This document shows positions 6,632 through 26,106 of a stretch of DNA of 64,000 nucleotides, in pieces. Where the stretch lies: positions 1-64,000 of the forward strand of contig JAFURC010000016.1 in the NCBI GenBank assembly GCA_017472015.1. Direction: 5' to 3'. The position numbers and the translations under genes were made by a program. Within the stretch, counting starts at the first letter, position 1; every line of letters begins with the position of its first letter. The DNA comes from Bacilli bacterium. GTDB lineage: Bacteria; Bacillota_I; Bacilli_A; RF39; UBA660. The notes under the pieces are model-generated. The model was not told the DNA's origin. It saw only the letters and a list, made by a program, of their open reading frames with translations, and searched no databases.

Positions 6632-8113
6632 TTACTGTGGACCAGCTTCAGTACAAGTTAAACTATCTTTTTTAATAACATTTACACTATCATGAAAAGC
6701 ACTACAAGATAGATAAGTAACTGAATCCGGAATCGTTACTTCCTGAAGAAGATCATAATAATTTTTAAATGCAATATCTCCGATATAATCTAATTTAGAG
6801 TTTTCTTCAAAGATTACATTTGATAAAGGATTATCACCAAATGCATCTTCTTTAATTGTTATTACACTATTCGGTATTTCAATACTAGTTATTTGATTGC
6901 TATCAAATGCTTCTGAATCAATATAATTTAATTTAGAATTCTCTTCGAATGTTACATTTGTAATACTATTTCCCCAAAATGCTGATTCTTCTATTCTAGT
7001 TACCGTATTAGGAATTACAACACTTGTTAATTTAATTTCATAAGAATAATTATAAAAACTTGATAAACCTATAGTAGTTACCTCATAACCATTTATTGTT
7101 TTAGGTATAACAACATCACTTCCACACCTTCTATCAAATCTATCATAATCTGTAATTGCAACCCCTATATCACCATCATAATCTACAGTCTCTACTGTAA
7201 AACAAGATTCATCAGTTACATTATATTTATGTTCATATTCCAATTGTAACTCTTTTTCGTTAAAGTCACCAGTTACATTTACCTTAATACTTGCAAATAC
7301 ATCTTTCCATTCTTCCATTGTATAATCTTCATTCATATTACCAATTACAACACTATCATCAATCCACATATATAAACGATAAGTTTTATTAATCTCTTCA
7401 GTTGTATTTTTAGGTATTATTTCAACATGAACTCTTTTGTTTTCTAAACTTGAATAACTTCTATTGTAAAAAATATTTTTTTGATTTTCACCATTTACTT
7501 CTAATAAAGCAAATCTTAAAGATTCATCATTTATGCGATTTTCTTCTAATTTTCCTTCTGGTACATCTCCATGATTTAATACAACATCATACCATATATC
7601 TTTTTGTTTATATGTATTCTTTCCACTTATAGTAAATTCAAAATATTCTAAATTTTCTAATTTTTGAACTATTATATTTAATGAGACCAGTTCTTGAATT
7701 TGGTTTTCATTATAAATACCATCATCTAAATCGTCTTGGAAAGTATAACCTCCATCATAAGTTCCTGTTCCTCGGCAAAAAGTTTCAGCAGTTGATCCTT
7801 CATCAAATTGATAATTCCATCCTGTATAAGTTGCTACACAACTACTTAATTCATTATCTCCAACTTCTTGAGTTGCCATTACGGGATTTACTTTATAAGT
7901 TGTATAATCATTGATATTAATTGGCATCATGTTATCGATATCGATACCTGAATTAGTTTCCGTGTAATGCATATAGATATCACCAAGGACTAATTGATGA
8001 TTATCCTCACCTGTTTGCCTATATACAAATGCGGCATATGTTACTGTAAATGTTAATAAAAGTATTAAAGTAACTACAATACTAAGTATTAATGTTTTTG
8101 TTTTTTTATTCAT
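6632..8113 (-). CDS. BspA-like leucine-rich-repeat surface protein (copy A)
   Basis: A 493-residue exported protein. The N-terminus has a Lys-rich start and one hydrophobic helix (about 8-29, ending TYAAF) that could be an uncleaved anchor or a TasA/camelysin-like signal. A beta-rich region follows (GDIYMHY about 45, FEFTISGKNTY about 160, KTYRLYMWIDD about 245), shared with the paralogue at 20948. The C-terminal third holds LRR_5/BspA repeats of the type SVVIPNTVTRIEESAFWGN, often used for adhesion or host interaction. No LPXTG or other C-terminal anchor is visible. It has its own promoter (8153-8181) and terminator and is therefore monocistronic, with a separate tiny ORF upstream. Confidence 0.85.
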   Translation of the reverse strand: MNKKTKTLILSIVVTLILLLTFTVTYAAFVYRQTGEDNHQLVLGDIYMHYTETNSGIDIDNMMPININDYTTYKVNPVMATQEVGDNELSSCVATYTGWNYQFDEGSTAETFCRGTGTYDGGYTFQDDLDDGIYNENQIQELVSLNIIVQKLENLEYFEFTISGKNTYKQKDIWYDVVLNHGDVPEGKLEENRINDESLRFALLEVNGENQKNIFYNRSYSSLENKRVHVEIIPKNTTEEINKTYRLYMWIDDSVVIGNMNEDYTMEEWKDVFASIKVNVTGDFNEKELQLEYEHKYNVTDESCFTVETVDYDGDIGVAITDYDRFDRRCGSDVVIPKTINGYEVTTIGLSSFYNYSYEIKLTSVVIPNTVTRIEESAFWGNSITNVTFEENSKLNYIDSEAFDSNQITSIEIPNSVITIKEDAFGDNPLSNVIFEENSKLDYIGDIAFKNYYDLLQEVTIPDSVTYLSCSAFHDSVNVIKKDSLTCTEAGPQ

Positions 8114-8152: not shown

Positions 8153-8181
8153 ATTATAGTATATCTTTTACTTTTTTGCAA
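8153..8181 (-). promoter_or_regulatory. Promoter of LRR surface gene A
   Basis: TTGCAA (8176-8181), 17-bp spacer, TATAAT (8153-8158) on the minus strand. It is conserved in sequence and position upstream of the second LRR gene (22869-22897). The predicted leader is about 33 nt and carries the ribosome binding site GGGAGG. Confidence 0.8.
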
Positions 8182-8208
8182 TTATTTAATTCTAAATTAA
8201 AAAAGCAC

Positions 8209-8234
8209 AAAAAAGTATGAAAAGACTTACTTTT
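8209..8234 (-). terminator. Possible terminator of tiny ORF A
   Basis: AAAAGTA (8234-8228) pairs with TACTTTT (8217-8211) around a 10-base loop and is followed by more T. It separates the tiny ORF from the LRR gene, but the stem is AT-rich and weak. The second locus has no equally clear counterpart. Confidence 0.4.
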
Positions 8235-8239
8235 AATCT

Positions 8240-8268
8240 ATCATATTCTTTGTACTTTATTTTGTCAA
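8240..8268 (-). promoter_or_regulatory. Additional promoter-like sequence upstream of LRR gene A
   Basis: TTGACA (8263-8268), 17-bp spacer, TATGAT (8240-8245) on the minus strand, between tiny ORF A and the LRR promoter. A good consensus match, but it is not obviously conserved at the second locus. Transcripts from it would begin at the hairpin at 8209-8234. Confidence 0.5.
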
Positions 8269-8297: not shown

Positions 8298-8334
8298 TTT
8301 ATACCCCCCCCATAGTTGACTCTGAGTTAACTTT
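8298..8334. repeat. 37-bp identical repeat, copy A (G8 tract plus 19-bp dyad)
   Basis: Identical base for base to 23017-23053. On the minus strand it encodes the last residues and stop of tiny ORF A. It contains the dyad AGTTAACTC-A-GAGTCAACT (8314-8332, one mismatched pair) directly followed by ATG and eight G (8304-8311). Between the two loci the flanking sequence is only partly conserved, so this core is under stronger constraint or was copied recently. The 333-bp gap from 8114 to 8446 is otherwise filled by the tiny ORF and the promoters listed separately. Confidence 0.85.
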
Positions 8335-8379
8335 AAAATTCGTATTTTTTTGAAAATTTTTATTATTTTTTTTAATCAT
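8299..8379 (-). CDS. Tiny ORF A: 26-residue peptide ending KVNSESTMGGV
   Basis: An unrecognised small ORF with an ATG at 8379 and TAA at 8301-8299. The upstream sequence AAAGTAGTTGAT matches the ideal AAAGGAGGTGAT ribosome-binding sequence at 10 of 12 positions. The peptide has a Lys/Asn-rich N-terminal half (MIKKNNKNFQ...) and the C-terminus KVNSESTMGGV, which is identical in tiny ORF B at 23018. No Cys, no hydrophobic helix and no double-glycine leader are present. That the reading frame is kept at both loci while the N-terminal halves diverge in length and sequence supports translation. Role unknown; candidates are a signalling or modified peptide, a leader peptide, or a by-product of a DNA/RNA element. 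Confidence 0.65.
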   Translation of the reverse strand: MIKKNNKNFQKNTNFKVNSESTMGGV

Positions 8380-19090: not shown

Positions 19091-19830
19091 TTTCCACCTT
19101 CTTCTTCTTTTTCTAAATAGGCAACTGAAATATTATCAATTCCCCCTAAATTATTAGCCTTTTGAATTAATCCAACTATTTTTTCTTCTATTTCATCTTG
19201 ACTATTTATTACATCTTCTATTTTACAGTCTTCAAGCATATTAGTCAAGCCATCACTGGCTAAAAGTACCCCTGAAATATTTGTATCGCAGTCAAAAACA
19301 TCTGCATCAACTGAAGGACTCGCACCAAGTGCTTTCATAAGCACATTCTTTCTTGGATGATCCCTGGCTTCATCTTCTGTGATCTCCCCTGCTTCAACTA
19401 ATAAATTAACAAGTGAATGATCAACTGTTACCTTATGAAGTTTATTATTCTTTACAACATAACCACTGGAATCTCCAATATTACCAAATAATAAATAATC
19501 TTTAGTATATAAAGCCAGAACTAAAGTCGTTCCCATACCAACACTTTCAGGATTAGTTTTTTCATATTCAAATATTTGATTATTAATACTTGTTACACTT
19601 TCATTTATCCAAATAATCGCACTTTCCTTATCTAAATTATAAAATGTTTCTTGAAAATGTTTACCAAGATAAGAAATCGCAATACTAGATGCAATTTCTC
19701 CAGCTCTATGTCCTCCCATCCCATCAGCAACAGCAAGCAAATATTCATCATTCACATTTTTTAAAATAATAACACTATCTTCATTATGAGATCTCACTTT
19801 TCCAACATCAGTTAAATAAAAACTTTTCAT
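19087..19830 (-). CDS. prpC: PP2C-family protein phosphatase PrpC/Stp
   Basis: Dephosphorylates PrkC and its targets. PPM metal-binding motifs are present: VRSHNEDS, AVADGMGGHRAGEIAS, GNIGDSSGYV and ASDGLTNML. HPRKNVLMKALG is typical of the bacterial Stp group. At 247 residues it is a complete catalytic domain without extras. It overlaps rlmN by 4 bp upstream and prkC by 4 bp downstream. Confidence 0.95.
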   Translation of the reverse strand: MKSFYLTDVGKVRSHNEDSVIILKNVNDEYLLAVADGMGGHRAGEIASSIAISYLGKHFQETFYNLDKESAIIWINESVTSINNQIFEYEKTNPESVGMGTTLVLALYTKDYLLFGNIGDSSGYVVKNNKLHKVTVDHSLVNLLVEAGEITEDEARDHPRKNVLMKALGASPSVDADVFDCDTNISGVLLASDGLTNMLEDCKIEDVINSQDEIEEKIVGLIQKANNLGGIDNISVAYLEKEEEGGK

Positions 19831-20852
19831 GCTAAATTCTCCTTAATTGTTTTTAACTGTCCACATGCAGCACTAATTTTTCCCCCAAATTCCCGTCTAA
19901 TCGTACAACTTATATTATTTTTCTTTAATATATCATAGAAAGTCATTATTCTTTCTTTACTACTTCTTTTATATTCTAAAGTATTTGTTTCATTGTATGG
20001 AATTAAATTAACATAACAGTTAATTCCCTTTAATAATCTACTAAGTTCTAAAGCTAATTCTTGGGTATCATTAACCCCACTTAACATGATATATTCAAAA
20101 GTTACCCGACGATTTGTTTTTTCTAAATAAAATTTAATTGATTCCATTAATTTTTCAATATTATAAACCTTATTAATTGGCATTAATTTACTTCTAAGCT
20201 CATTATTTGGAGCATGCAAGCTAATTGCCAAATTTACTTGATACGGAAATTCACTAAACTCATATATCTTAGGCACAATTCCACAAGTTGAAACCGTTAT
20301 ATGCCGACTTCCTAAATTAATTCCCATATTACTATTTACTATTTCAATAAAATCACAAATATTTTGATAATTATCAAAAGGTTCCCCTATTCCCATAATA
20401 ACTACATGACTAATACGAATATCAAGATCACTTTCAATTTTTAATATTTGTAACACCATCTCACCACTTTTAACATCCCGAATTTTTTTAATTTTTCCAG
20501 ACTCACAAAAAGAACAAGCCATATTACAACCAACTTCTGAAGAAATACACAAACTCTTCCCATAATCATGTTCCATTAAAACCGCTTCAATTGTATTCCC
20601 ATCAGATAACTTTAACAAATATTTATAAACTAACTCATCACTTTGTTTATTAACAATTTCTATATTATCAAAATAAAAATCTTTCTTTAACAACTCAATT
20701 ACTTCTTTTTTCATATTAGTAATCATATCAAAACTTTTTATTCTTTTTACATAAATCCAATCAAATAATTGTTTAGTTCGGTACTTCTTCTCACCAATAC
20801 TAATAAAATAATCATCAAGCCTTGAACTTGTCATACTATATATACTTTCCAT
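19827..20852 (-). CDS. rlmN: Dual-specificity 23S rRNA/tRNA adenine-C2 methyltransferase RlmN
   Basis: A radical-SAM enzyme that methylates A2503 of 23S rRNA and A37 of some tRNAs. The cluster motif is CNMACSFCESG, and the resolving Cys is in SAACGQLK at the C-terminus. GIGEPFDNY and SLHAPNNELR are family blocks. The start at 20852 (MESIYSM, 341 residues) has GGGTG a few bases upstream; an in-frame codon at 20864 is probably too close to the transcription start. First gene of the rlmN-prpC-prkC-rsgA-rpe run. Confidence 0.94.
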   Translation of the reverse strand: MESIYSMTSSRLDDYFISIGEKKYRTKQLFDWIYVKRIKSFDMITNMKKEVIELLKKDFYFDNIEIVNKQSDELVYKYLLKLSDGNTIEAVLMEHDYGKSLCISSEVGCNMACSFCESGKIKKIRDVKSGEMVLQILKIESDLDIRISHVVIMGIGEPFDNYQNICDFIEIVNSNMGINLGSRHITVSTCGIVPKIYEFSEFPYQVNLAISLHAPNNELRSKLMPINKVYNIEKLMESIKFYLEKTNRRVTFEYIMLSGVNDTQELALELSRLLKGINCYVNLIPYNETNTLEYKRSSKERIMTFYDILKKNNISCTIRREFGGKISAACGQLKTIKENLA

Positions 20853-20884
20853 ACAAACACCCATAGTAATTTTACCATAACGAT

Positions 20885-20937
20885 AAAAAAAAATATAGTT
20901 AAAATAGTTCTACTTAACAATTTTTGACTATATTTTT
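20885..20937 (-). terminator. Terminator of LRR surface gene B
   Basis: AAAAATATAGT (20937-20927) pairs perfectly with ACTATATTTTT (20899-20889), with a further AAAAT/ATTTT inside, then a long T run toward 20885. Confidence 0.85.
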
Positions 20938-20947
20938 ACTTTATTAA

Positions 20948-22819
20948 TTAATATTCACATTCTCCATCTGTTCCTATTATAGTTGTTTTATATCCTTCTT
21001 GATAATAAGGACTACTACCATATAACCAAGGAAAATATTTAATAGTTTTGATTTCTTCACATGTTTTACTTGTAAATGTTATACTTTCTAAATTAGGATT
21101 AGTATTTGATGATTTGTTAAAAACATTTAGCCCTATATTTTGAATGCCGCTTCCTATTGTTACTGTTTTTAATTGATTATTAGCAAAAGCACTCTGACCT
21201 ATCGTTGTTACACTATCTGGTATCACTACACTTGTTAATTTATTTCCATAGAAAGCATAATCTTCTATTACTGTTACACTATTTGGTATCACTACACTTG
21301 TTAATTGATTATTAAAAAAAGCACTCTGACCTATTGTTGTTACACTATTTGGTATCTCTACACTTGTTAATTTATTTCCATAGAAAGCATAATCTTCTAT
21401 TACTGTTACACTATTTGGTATCTCTACACTTGTTAATTGATTATCAGAAAAAGCACTCTGACCTATTGTTGTTACACTATCTGGTATCACTACACTTGTT
21501 AATTGATTATAAGAAAAAGCACTCTGACCTATTATTGTTACACTATTTGGTATCACTACACTTGTTAAGTTATTATCAGAAAAAGCATTAGAACCTATTG
21601 TTGTTATAGTGTTAGGGATAACTATATTTTCTACATCACTAAAAATCGGTTCATGTGTTTCATATTTTAACTTACCTTGCAAAACAGTGACATTAATATC
21701 ATTTATTTTTTCAGGAATTATTACATCCACACCACCTGTAGTTAAATTATATGAAGTTAAAGTTATGCTAGCATTATTTTTATCAATTGCATTAATATCT
21801 AATTCTTCACTTGTATCTGAGTTTATATATTTATCTACTATACCTTGATAATTTGATATTATCCCTTCATCTTGTAAATAATTATAATCGATTGATAAAC
21901 CTTGCGTGCTTAATTGATCAATAACAACATTAAAAGTCAGTCCCTGTAATGTTTCTCCATTGCACAAAGATTTAAATGATAAATATATTTCTTCATTTTC
22001 ATTTTTTACTTCATCCGGATCAGAACCTGCACTTTGTATTATATATGAAGCACAAATATCTAATTGTTCTTCTGTTAAATTACTGTTTAAATCATAGACT
22101 ACTTTATTAGTTTTTGTATAACTAACTCCTTCATATTCTATATCATATCCAAAACAACTTTCATCTGTTTCAATTGATTTTTCTTCCAAATCACCTTTAA
22201 CATTTACTTTAATACTTGCATATAATTTATTCCAATCTAAATTTGCATATTCTTCACTTGGATTGATATAGTAATCACATCCATCAGTTACTTCTCCACC
22301 ACAAATATTTAAATATTCAGCAATTCTTACATATAACCTATATGTTTTAGAATAATTACCATCATCTGATCCTATTGTATCTACCCAAATTCTTTTATTA
22401 GTTATATCACTATAAGTACGATCACTAAAGATTTCTGTTTCTAAATCTCCATTTACTTCCACTAATTTAAATTTTAATAATTGAGAATCTATTGGAATAG
22501 TTCTATTTAAATCGCTTCCCTCGTATTCTCCATTATCAAGAACTATTTCATAATAAATATTTTTTTTATTATAAGTATTTTTACCACTTACTTGAAATTC
22601 AAAATAATCAGTTTCCGGATATTCTTCGCTTGGCATTAAATTATTGATATTTATTGTTTTACTTGTTTCATTATAATACATATAAATATCTCCGGTTATT
22701 ACTTCTTGATTTTCAAATCCAGTTTGCTGATACACAAATACTGCATAGGAAACTCCAACGATTATCAACAAAATTGCTAATATTCCAATTACTAAAACTT
22801 TTACTTTTTCTTTTTTCAT
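20948..22819 (-). CDS. BspA-like leucine-rich-repeat surface protein (copy B)
   Basis: A 623-residue paralogue of the protein at 6632-8113. It has a Lys-rich N-terminus, a hydrophobic helix (about 8-27) and VFVYQQTGFENQEVITGDIYMYY-type beta segments (about 28-50). A conserved domain contains FEFQVSGKNTYNKKN and KTYRLYVRIAE, then a spacer domain (about 215-385). At least six 22-residue LRR_5 units follow (about 405-560; e.g. NQLTSVVIPNSVTTIGQSAF). A short tail with Cys residues ends CEY. No sorting signal is seen. Promoter 22869-22897 and terminator 20885-20937 make it monocistronic. The ribosome binding site is GTGAGG. Confidence 0.85.
   Translation of the reverse strand: MKKEKVKVLVIGILAILLIIVGVSYAVFVYQQTGFENQEVITGDIYMYYNETSKTININNLMPSEEYPETDYFEFQVSGKNTYNKKNIYYEIVLDNGEYEGSDLNRTIPIDSQLLKFKLVEVNGDLETEIFSDRTYSDITNKRIWVDTIGSDDGNYSKTYRLYVRIAEYLNICGGEVTDGCDYYINPSEEYANLDWNKLYASIKVNVKGDLEEKSIETDESCFGYDIEYEGVSYTKTNKVVYDLNSNLTEEQLDICASYIIQSAGSDPDEVKNENEEIYLSFKSLCNGETLQGLTFNVVIDQLSTQGLSIDYNYLQDEGIISNYQGIVDKYINSDTSEELDINAIDKNNASITLTSYNLTTGGVDVIIPEKINDINVTVLQGKLKYETHEPIFSDVENIVIPNTITTIGSNAFSDNNLTSVVIPNSVTIIGQSAFSYNQLTSVVIPDSVTTIGQSAFSDNQLTSVEIPNSVTVIEDYAFYGNKLTSVEIPNSVTTIGQSAFFNNQLTSVVIPNSVTVIEDYAFYGNKLTSVVIPDSVTTIGQSAFANNQLKTVTIGSGIQNIGLNVFNKSSNTNPNLESITFTSKTCEEIKTIKYFPWLYGSSPYYQEGYKTTIIGTDGECEY
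21190..21590. repeat. 66-bp tandem repeats with a 132-bp higher-order unit in LRR gene B
   Basis: The marker string ACTCTGACCTAT-like recurs at 21191, 21323, 21455 and 21521, giving 132-, 132- and 66-bp spacings. Units differ at few positions, indicating recent intragenic duplication. Each 66-bp unit encodes one 22-residue LRR. Confidence 0.85.
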
Positions 22820-22868
22820 TTTTTCCTCACTTTCTAAATTTTCAACATCGCCCCTTGATTATGATTTA

Positions 22869-22897
22869 ATTATATAATAGATTTTTACTATTTGCAA
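22869..22897 (-). promoter_or_regulatory. Promoter of LRR surface gene B
   Basis: TTGCAA (22892-22897), 17-bp spacer, TATAAT (22869-22874) on the minus strand; the same -35, spacing and -10 as LRR gene A. Confidence 0.8.
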
Positions 22898-23016
22898 CTC
22901 TTTCATTTTAAATTAAAAAGATGCAAAAAAGTATAGTAAAACTAATATTAAGATTGCTACATTTTTTGTATCTAAATTTATTTAATAATATTATTAATTT
23001 AGTTAGAAATTGGAAA

Positions 23017-23053
23017 TTTATACCCCCCCCATAGTTGACTCTGAGTTAACTTT
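23017..23053. repeat. 37-bp identical repeat, copy B (G8 tract plus 19-bp dyad)
   Basis: Identical to 8298-8334. The dyad lies at 23033-23051 and eight G (as C on the plus strand) at 23023-23030. The rest of the 359-bp gap 22820-23178 holds the LRR promoter, tiny ORF B and its putative promoter. Confidence 0.85.
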
Positions 23054-23107
23054 TTGATTTGAAAAATTTGAAAAAAATTTAGTTTTTTTAGAAATTATTT
23101 TTACCAT
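23018..23107 (-). CDS. Tiny ORF B: 29-residue peptide ending KVNSESTMGGV
   Basis: ATG at 23107, TAA at 23020-23018, with AAAGGTTGTGA as ribosome binding site. The N-terminal half (MVKIISKKTKFF...) is basic and differs from that of tiny ORF A, including in length by three codons. The 11 C-terminal residues are identical. It lies about 200 bp upstream of LRR gene B, in the same position and orientation as tiny ORF A relative to LRR gene A. No match to a known peptide family comes to mind. Confidence 0.65.
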   Translation of the reverse strand: MVKIISKKTKFFSNFSNQKVNSESTMGGV

Positions 23108-23139
23108 ATTTTCACAACCTTTCTAGTTTTACTAAAATA

Positions 23140-23168
23140 ATTTAATCATATTTTGTTAATTTAATCAA
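23140..23168 (-). promoter_or_regulatory. Putative promoter of tiny ORF B
   Basis: TTGATT (23163-23168), 17-bp spacer, TTAAAT (23140-23145) on the minus strand. The -10 is poor, but the -35 string CTTGATTAAAT is identical to that at tiny ORF A. It overlaps the region just after the smc stop codon. Confidence 0.4.
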
Positions 23169-23178
23169 GTAGAATTTA

Positions 23179-26106
23179 TTAATTATCTTCTAACTTTACA
23201 CTTACAAGCTTGGATACACCTGATTCTTGCATAGTAATTCCATATAAAGTTTTAGCATATTCCATGGTTCTTTTTTTATGAGTGATAAGCAAGAACTGCG
23301 TTTTATCTTGATAATTATTTAAATACTCTCCAAAGTTATCAACATTTGCTTCATCAAGTGCTGCTTCCACCTCATCAAACACGCAAAATGGAACACTTCT
23401 AATATTTAAAATAGCAAATAATAAACTAATAGCTGTAAGAGTCTTTTCCCCTCCTGACATTAAAGAAATAGTTTTTAATTTCTTACCAGGAGGTGATGCA
23501 ATTATTTCAACTCCTGTTTCTAGTAAATTATTTGGATCTGTTAGTTTTAAACTAGCATCTCCTCCTTTAAACATTTCTTTAAATACTTTTTTAAACTCAA
23601 TTTGAAGTTTTTCAAAAGTAGTTTTAAAATCATCTTGCATTACATCATCCATCTCTTCTATTATTGAGTAAAGCATCTCTTTAGCATGTAATAAATCATC
23701 TCTTTCACTTGTTAAATAAGTATATCTTTCATTTACATTTTCATATTCTTTGATACTATCAATATTAACCATACCAATACTCTTTAATTTAACTTTTAAA
23801 TCACTTACTAAACTTCTTGCTTCATCTTTATCTATTTCAAGAACATATTCATTTTTAGCTCTTTCATAGGTTAAACTATAATCATTATTTAATATATTTA
23901 AATTATTATCTAAAGATGTATCTAGTTTACTTAATAATATATTTAAATTATTAAGTTCTTTTTCTTCTTTTTGTAAAGCACTTTGATTAACTTTATTAAT
24001 ACCTTCTTTTTCTAAAATATTTGTTTGTAATAGATCTTTTTCTTTAATTAAATTATTTAAATCTTTTTCTAACATACTAACTTCTAAAGATTTATCATAG
24101 TATAATTTATCTAATTTACTAATTTCATCAGTTGTATCACTATTATCGAGAGTTTTTAATTCTAAAACTATGTCTTCTAATTTTTTATTAATATCTAAAA
24201 CTTTATTATTTAAAACTTTTAAATTATCAATTAAACTAATTAAATTAGTTCTTTCATGATAGATATTATTATCTATTGAAGTAATTTCACTTTCTAAATT
24301 ATTTATTTCTTTTAAACTATTTTCTAAGATATTTTTATTTAAATTTAATTTAAGTTCTAATTCATTTAATTCATTTTTAACACCTGATAAATTCTTAGTA
24401 AATTCAGCCGATCCTCCAGTTATACTACCACCTACATGAATAATATCCCCGTCTAGTGTCATGACACGATATTTGTTTTTAATTAATTTACTAAGTCTGT
24501 TGGCATTATCTAAATTATTAGTTACAATAATATTACCAAATTGATTTAAAATGATATCTTTATATATATCACGATAAGTAATAAAATCACTTAAAACTCC
24601 TAAATAACTAGATTCATTTTCTAATATTTTTTTAGTTTCAAAATCTATATATTTTCCTTTAATAACATCAAGTGGTAAGAAAGTTACTCTACCTAAATGA
24701 TTACTTTTTAAAAACTCAATTGCTAAGTTAGCACTTGCTCCAGTATCAACTATTAAGAAATTCTTATTAGATAATGTAGCTACATCCAAACACTTTTGAT
24801 ATTTATTATCGGTTTTAACTAAATTAATTAAAGCATCATGAATACCAGATAATCTTGGATTATCAATTACTTTTTTGACATTACTATTTAAATAAACATT
24901 ATCACTTATATTACTTTTTAATATTTCTATTTTATTTAGTAAATTCAAGTTTTCTTTATCTTTATAATTATATTCTTTTAAAGTATTTTCTTTTTTGGTT
25001 TTTAAAGTATTTAAACTATCAATTAAATTATTTAAATTATTTTCTATTTTTTCTTTAGTTAAAGTTAATTCATGAAGTTCTTTTTTACTAAGTTCTAAAG
25101 TACTTTCAAGTTTTAATTTCTCTTCTTTTAAATAACTAATATTTTCATGGATTTTAATATCATTTGCTTCATATTTACTACGTTCTTTTAAAAGAATACG
25201 CCTACTATTTAATTCTTCTTTTTCCCGTGATTTAATAATTAAATCATTGTTTAACTTTTGAATTTCTTTTTCAATATTAATTTGACTCAATTTAAGTTCA
25301 TCTATTTCTGGATCATTTAATTTAGTATTTAACTTAAGAATAGTTTCATTTAAAGTTTTAATCTTTTCTTTCGTATCTTGATAAGTTAAATTCATATCAC
25401 TTATTTCACGAGCTAATAAAGCAACTTCAATTTTTTCTAATTGACTCTTATATTCTAAATAACTCTTAGCTTTTTCACTTTGTTTTTTTAAAGGAATAAC
25501 TCTTTCTTCAACTTCCGTTATAATATCATTTACGCGTTCTAAATTTAAATTCGTTTTATCAAGTTTCTTAAACGCTTCTTCTCTTCTTTTTTTATATTTT
25601 AAAATACCGGCGGCTTCTTCAATTACAAGTCGTCTTTCATATGGAGATGTTGATAAAATCTTCGATATTTCTCCTTGACCTATTATATTAAAAGAGTCCC
25701 TCCCTATACTACTATCTAAAAATAAATCAACAATATCTTTTAAACGACATTTATCTCCATTTAAAAAGTATTCATTTTCACCCGTTTTATATAACCTTCT
25801 TTTAACAGATACATTTTGATAAGGAATATTTAAATAGTTGTCCGTATTATCAAATGTTAAAGAGACACTCGCAACATGCATAGGACTTCTATTTTTTGAT
25901 CCTCCAAATATAACATCACTCATTAAGTTATCGCCCCGAAGTGATTTAACTGATTGTTCACCAAGAACAAACCGAATAGCATCAACTACATTACTTTTAC
26001 CACTTCCATTAGGCCCAACAATACAAGTTATTTTATTATCTAAATTTATATTTAATTTATCAGCAAATGATTTAAATCCTGATACTTCTATTTCTTTTAA
26101 ATACAT
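23179..26106 (-). CDS. smc: Chromosome segregation ATPase SMC with short coiled-coil arms
   Basis: The condensin core that organises and segregates the chromosome. The N-terminal head has Walker [15 protein letters not shown] and [11 protein letters not shown]. The hinge (about 400-590) includes [12 protein letters not shown] and GGSITGG. The C-terminal head has the signature [18 protein letters not shown] and Walker [18 protein letters not shown]. All catalytic motifs are intact. Total length is 975 residues against about 1,180 in B. subtilis; the loss falls about equally in the two coiled-coil arms. No rnc or ftsY is adjacent. Confidence 0.95.

Follow-up and report, generated by a model that had tools for sequence, protein, structure and literature searches.

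Both tiny ORFs that precede LRR surface genes in the window (the whole 64,000-nucleotide stretch analysed here, part of contig G000:C47 in a 1.33 Mb, AT-rich assembly of 49 contigs) belong to a recurrent upstream unit that, judging by its sequence, is probably a phase-variable, translation-coupled transcription attenuator. The anatomy of the unit, its terminator, its frame geometry, tract-length differences between near-identical paralogues and the surface or polysaccharide genes lying downstream can be read directly from the DNA.

The original prediction described a tiny ORF, here copy B, sharing a C-terminal core with a second ORF, copy A. We confirmed the ORF at 23018-23107(-) (MVKIISKKTKFFSNFSNQKVNSESTMGGV, with the Shine–Dalgarno (SD) site AGAAAGG), and its 30-bp C-terminal core (AAGTTAACTCAGAGTCAACTATGGGGGGGG) recurs exactly at 8304-8333(-), ahead of a second LRR gene (LRR_5). 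Chance had rightly been discounted: 0.06 and 0.00 matches are expected for the two core patterns. The repetition of the promoter string (CTTGATTAAAT), the ribosome binding site (RBS) and the spacing was also borne out, the distance from G run to surface-gene start codon being 190–203 nt in both copies. The conserved G run itself, a terminator between ORF and gene, promoter-like sequence after that terminator and 11 further copies in the genome had gone unremarked. The parts of the two copies are as follows.

23163–23168, minus strand: copy B, −35-like TTGATT of promoter P1 (the CTTGATTAAAT string), with the −10 about 17 nt on; called from sequence and from P1-like enrichment over shuffles
23118–23124, minus strand: copy B, SD AGAAAGG of the leader ORF; called from sequence
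23018–23107, minus strand: copy B, leader ORF of 29 codons in the short (G8) frame, its stop codon ending 5 nt past the G run
23034–23050, minus strand: copy B, conserved 11-nt direct repeat GTTAAC-N5-GTCAAC
23023–23030, minus strand: copy B, G8 tract
22919–22973, minus strand: copy B, intrinsic-terminator-like hairpin, then T run; called from family-wide detection against shuffles and from covariation
22869–22897, minus strand: copy B, P2-like promoter TTGCAA-17-TATAAT in the gap between terminator and gene; called from sequence and from P2-like enrichment over shuffles
20948–22819, minus strand: copy B, exported BspA-type LRR protein with a TasA-like N terminus
8299–8379, minus strand: copy A, leader ORF MIKKNNKNFQKNTNFKVNSESTMGGV
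8315–8331, minus strand: copy A, 11-nt direct repeat
8304–8311, minus strand: copy A, G8 tract
8202–8258, minus strand: copy A, terminator hairpin (−18 kcal/mol) and T run
8153–8181, minus strand: copy A, P2-like promoter TTGCAA-17-TATAAT
6632–8113, minus strand: copy A, exported BspA-type LRR protein with a TasA-like N terminus

With a G9 tract, the leader ORF of copy B is predicted to run 115 nt beyond the tract, through the terminator. Rfam gave no matches at gathering score in the window. In copy B (window 22940-23140), TAGTAAAACTA, which precedes the SD, and TAGTTTTACTA, in the terminator region, are complementary; we did not see this complementarity in copy A. Pairing of the SD region with the motif was considered and rejected, being present in the fold of copy A and absent in that of copy B.

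Across the family, the coding strand carries a P1-like promoter, an SD, the leader ORF, the 11-nt direct repeat, 2–3 nt, the G tract, a stop codon, an AT-rich spacer and a hairpin with a T run, in that order; after the hairpin comes either an RBS and the gene directly, or a P2-like promoter first. In most copies the leader ORF has 14–35 codons and ends at or just past the G run, with the intrinsic terminator about 45 nt further, and nearly all have an SD and a start codon (start codons were picked by SD energy). P1-like scores of at least 9 were found in 63% of 92 units, compared with 7% of shuffles. A terminator lies 15–59 nt past the G run in 99 copies, versus 5 of 99 shuffled downstream sequences. 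The hairpins have diverged in sequence yet kept their pairing, with compensatory changes at 6 of 9 consensus pairs among 12 diverse hairpins. Past the terminator, 53 of 82 units have a gap of 45 nt or more, room enough for P2, and a P2-like promoter is present in 66% of those 53 (compared with 9% of shuffles); 24 units have at most 30 nt there, too little for P2.

AT-rich DNA leaves a frame open in about two thirds of shuffles, so we judged frame geometry against spacers shuffled with dinucleotides kept (n = 99 units with a terminator). At least one frame reaches the terminator in 99/99 units (64.1, s.d. 4.1, in shuffles), and exactly one does so in 92/99 (49.9, s.d. 4.7), counts that are not independent, as the units share descent. 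A non-redundant set of 46 units less than 70% alike, which lessens that dependence and does not remove it, gave 46 against 29.8 for some frame and 42 against 23.1 for exactly one. The one-frame effect was alike in units with a short gap (25/27) and a long gap (49/53), that is, without and with room for P2. The stop of short-frame units lies a median of 36 nt before the hairpin, and at least 28 nt before it in 56 of 75. One additional G moves 62 of the 63 short G8 copies into the long frame.

We infer slippage in cells, antitermination and an effect on expression. RNA polymerase would start at P1 and ribosomes would translate the leader ORF; at G8, with the ORF stopping at or just past the tract and thus at that median distance from the hairpin, the hairpin would form and transcription would end. 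An extra G, gained by replication slippage, would carry the frame into or across the hairpin, and ribosomes in the long frame would hold it open, letting transcription proceed into the surface gene. With dozens of units flipping independently, a clone would turn into a mixture of surface types. The promoter after the terminator in many copies may make the effect graded, and units with room for P2 may be independent of read-through; where P2 is present, which includes both copies in the window, the choice is probably between high and basal expression.

Tracts range from G7 to G13, mostly G8–G10, and lie where the short frame ends or a little upstream of that point. Short and long frames number 63 and 4 among G8 units, 9 and 14 among G9 units, and 2 and 3 among G10 units. 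Paralogues with identical 40-nt flanks differ in the tract only, L077 and L102 having G8 (short) and L129 having G9 (long); between L097 (G8) and L089 (G9), one flanking base differs. Some relatives have the tract inside the surface-gene coding sequence (CDS), in frame at G9 in L220 and out of frame at G10 in L221 and G11 in L218, and L188 and an acyltransferase gene of L196 have an in-frame G8 tract inside the CDS. Because all these comparisons are between different loci, and not of one locus across cells, we infer switching from them. The position that marks homopolymeric contingency genes, a tract in the surface CDS, was seen only in L188, L196 and L220; both window copies have a separate leader. 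L218, L220, L221 and L222 (genome G428) have motif-free G8 to G11 tracts at the start of exported-protein genes (MKxQESRIGGG...), a family that, from this arrangement, is one of classical contingency genes. Several contigs break inside or soon after a G tract; tract mixtures may be the cause, or just assembly breaks induced by repeats.

A rather unlikely alternative is programmed slippage with the DNA unchanged, in which, during a constant or regulated share of rounds, the polymerase adds a G or the ribosome shifts −1 on G8, so that antitermination has a defined level. This would account for the exact +1 nt or −1 frame change that lengthens those 62 of 63 short copies, for the strong preference for G8 and for a conserved motif just upstream of the tract, where a stimulator would sit, and stem-loop-mediated transcriptional slippage has a precedent in literature cited by PMC9187656. 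That almost every short G8 copy needs +1, and not −1, is equally compatible with programmed slippage or frameshifting and with shared ancestry. However, near-identical paralogues do vary in tract length, tracts in surface-gene CDSs occur at both in-frame and out-of-frame lengths, and the motif is a direct repeat with no conserved hairpin.

The 11-nt period was the sole one to stand out (z = 8.3) among 30 different upstream sequences collected without bias. As 11 is not a multiple of three, the half-sites never share a frame and could not specify a repeated peptide. Elsewhere in the genus, species carry the half-sites CTTGAC/TTTGAC (G016) and GTTAAG/CTCAAC, a variation that favours a direct repeat over a palindrome; we therefore rejected a palindrome, operator or hairpin reading of GTTRAC-N5-GTYAAC, although it looks palindromic in this genome. 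Relative to the leader, the motif is in frame 0 in most copies, in frame 2 in many G005 copies (TCQHTVNHGGGY) and in frame 1 in L085, L100, L134 and one L196 copy. Because copies differ in which of the three frames reads the motif, there is no conserved peptide, which makes a pheromone unlikely.

That the peptide itself acts, as a pheromone, a matured peptide or an arrest peptide ending in VNxxSTxGGV, is extremely improbable and largely refuted. The C-terminal residues are alike in the open leaders of this genome and the SD sites are strong, but related copies use all three frames, the period does not preserve frame, the peptide ends differently in other species of the genus, and G9 replaces the C terminus. 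With three frames and an 11-nt period, we found no amino-acid conservation beyond the nucleotide constraint. The modular unit had been proposed to accompany or control surface-protein expression, as a peptide pheromone, a leader peptide or an enzyme-matured peptide. Accompaniment stands, control is probable and the leader peptide is the option supported; the pheromone and the matured peptide are not supported, as conservation is at the nucleotide level, with three frames, 11-nt half-site spacing and a freely variable peptide body. The leader peptide is best seen as a by-product.

The attenuator model does not explain the conservation of the direct repeat. Its TTRAC-like half-sites might, tentatively, be a dedicated nucleic-acid signal, with a bound factor setting the slippage rate or coupling it to conditions, a proposal we consider possible but doubtful. 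If true, these bacteria would have a portable mutation switch under regulation, deployed at dozens of surface loci. A conserved motif flanking a slippage tract is unusual.

Allowing two mismatches, we counted 12 occurrences of the core in the genome, and a covariance model built from 11 copies found 13; the reversed motif does not occur in the genome. Because an exact-motif search is circular with respect to motif conservation, we added an unbiased scan of all runs of at least eight G, and 10 of 10 such runs in the 1.33 Mb belong to the unit. The core count suggested with the original prediction came out in its favour in this genome: all 13 copies are intergenic, each downstream of an unrelated gene's stop, and nearly all precede an exported protein of one family with the same type of N terminus, with no random scatter inside genes. 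None has the long frame. L006 and L008 are degenerate, having lost the G run, and L007 has an early stop in the leader; in that leader (G000:C48) an A9 tract comes before the in-frame stop, marking either a decayed leader or another slippage site.

The unit lies upstream in 11 of the 16 strongest genome matches covering the N-terminal part of the exported family; C11:217 and C14:25893, among those 16, lie close to the ends of contigs and may have lost an upstream unit there. It is absent upstream of the remaining family matches, for example on C31, C37, C5 and C8. One TasA-like gene lacking the unit, at L227 (G000:C31), is preceded at a distance of about 180 nt by an AT dinucleotide repeat (TATATATATATATATAT) that follows an SD-like site in the leader region; this repeat may be another type of slippage switch in this genome. 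An inverted repeat, TATAATCAATC...GATTGATTATA, precedes a further TasA-like gene that lacks the unit, at L228 (G000:C11).

Copies are found between unrelated housekeeping genes, which is in line with a dispersed repeat or movable promoter cassette, whose terminator merely insulates the surface gene from upstream transcription; the P2-like promoter in many copies and the lack of an insert at the smc–rlmN spot of relative G012 agree with this. We regard it as very unlikely, as it accounts neither for the frame geometry nor for the G run, nor for selection that keeps one frame open as far as the terminator. The smc–rlmN spot (window 19827-26106; L251-L266) is variable in the genus: it holds the leader and LRR gene here, two lipoprotein-like genes in G014 and G003 (L253, L258), and a remnant terminator and a gene without the G tract in G002 (L255), while in G012 (L260) smc and an rlmN-like gene are directly adjacent.

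The exact pattern occurs in 67 stretches among 84,980 species genomes (GTDB), all from uncultured Bacilli, Tenericutes or Clostridia MAGs. GTDB-wide, the unit is confined to related uncultured gut Bacilli, at about 10 to 30 copies per genome; G8 runs are found in 15 of 17 genomes of the genus, and the pattern also in two genomes of a second genus of the same family. A check for viral origin gave 0 matches in 2.9 million viral contigs.

Most of the approximately 90 downstream genes that we read encode exported proteins whose N terminus is TasA-like, and some of these also have BspA-type LRRs. Others encode acyltransferase-3 (PF01757), Wzz (PF02706), FkbH-like, hexapeptide-like and short-chain dehydrogenase proteins. 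Profile comparison with PDB and Pfam gave no TasA/camelysin match for the N terminus, so 'TasA-like' is purely descriptive, from N-terminal appearance.

In classical trp-type leader-peptide attenuators, ribosome position decides terminator formation, as we propose here. Unlike that type, the unit has no run of regulatory codons except Gly GGG, and frame length, not stalling, would be the switch. In Bifidobacterium breve, replication slippage at a G tract within a pilus gene controls pili (Penno et al. 2022, PMC9187656). G-tract length switches a surface structure in a gut commensal there and is predicted to do so here, whereas the tract here is mostly in an upstream leader and only in a minority of cases in CDSs (L188, L196, L220).

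By analogy, the proposed mechanism matches the model for pil1/pil3 of Streptococcus gallolyticus, a phase-variable leader attenuator shown by variants and by start-codon and terminator mutants and established experimentally for pil1 (Danne et al. 2014, PMC3894217). There, leaders stopping at least 28 nt before the terminator give a mostly low profile, and those stopping beside it or crossing it give a high share of highly expressing cells (PMC3894217). Both systems have a promoter and leader ORF upstream (here called by sequence), a slippage-prone repeat inside the leader ORF and a terminator reached by only some frames (exactly one in 92/99 units here), such that a frame change extends the ORF into or through the terminator ahead of surface genes; the short leader stops 39 bp before the hairpin in S. 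gallolyticus UCN34 (PMC3894217) and a median of 36 nt before it here. In contrast to GCAGA pentamers at two pilus loci, the unit has a G8–G10 tract after a conserved 11-nt direct repeat at about 10 to 30 loci per genome, precedes TasA-like and polysaccharide genes, and often has a second promoter. In the open-access literature, which leaves most subscription papers outside, we found no report of the module or of phase variation in RF39-type Bacilli. The G-run length at each locus offers a simple metagenome readout. The unit differs from pil1/pil3 in its G tract, conserved flanking repeat and genome-wide multiplicity; it points to genome-wide combinatorial surface variation in uncultured gut Bacilli from one reusable leader module, and suggests that phase-variable attenuation, so far described at two pilus loci, can serve as a strategy of general use.
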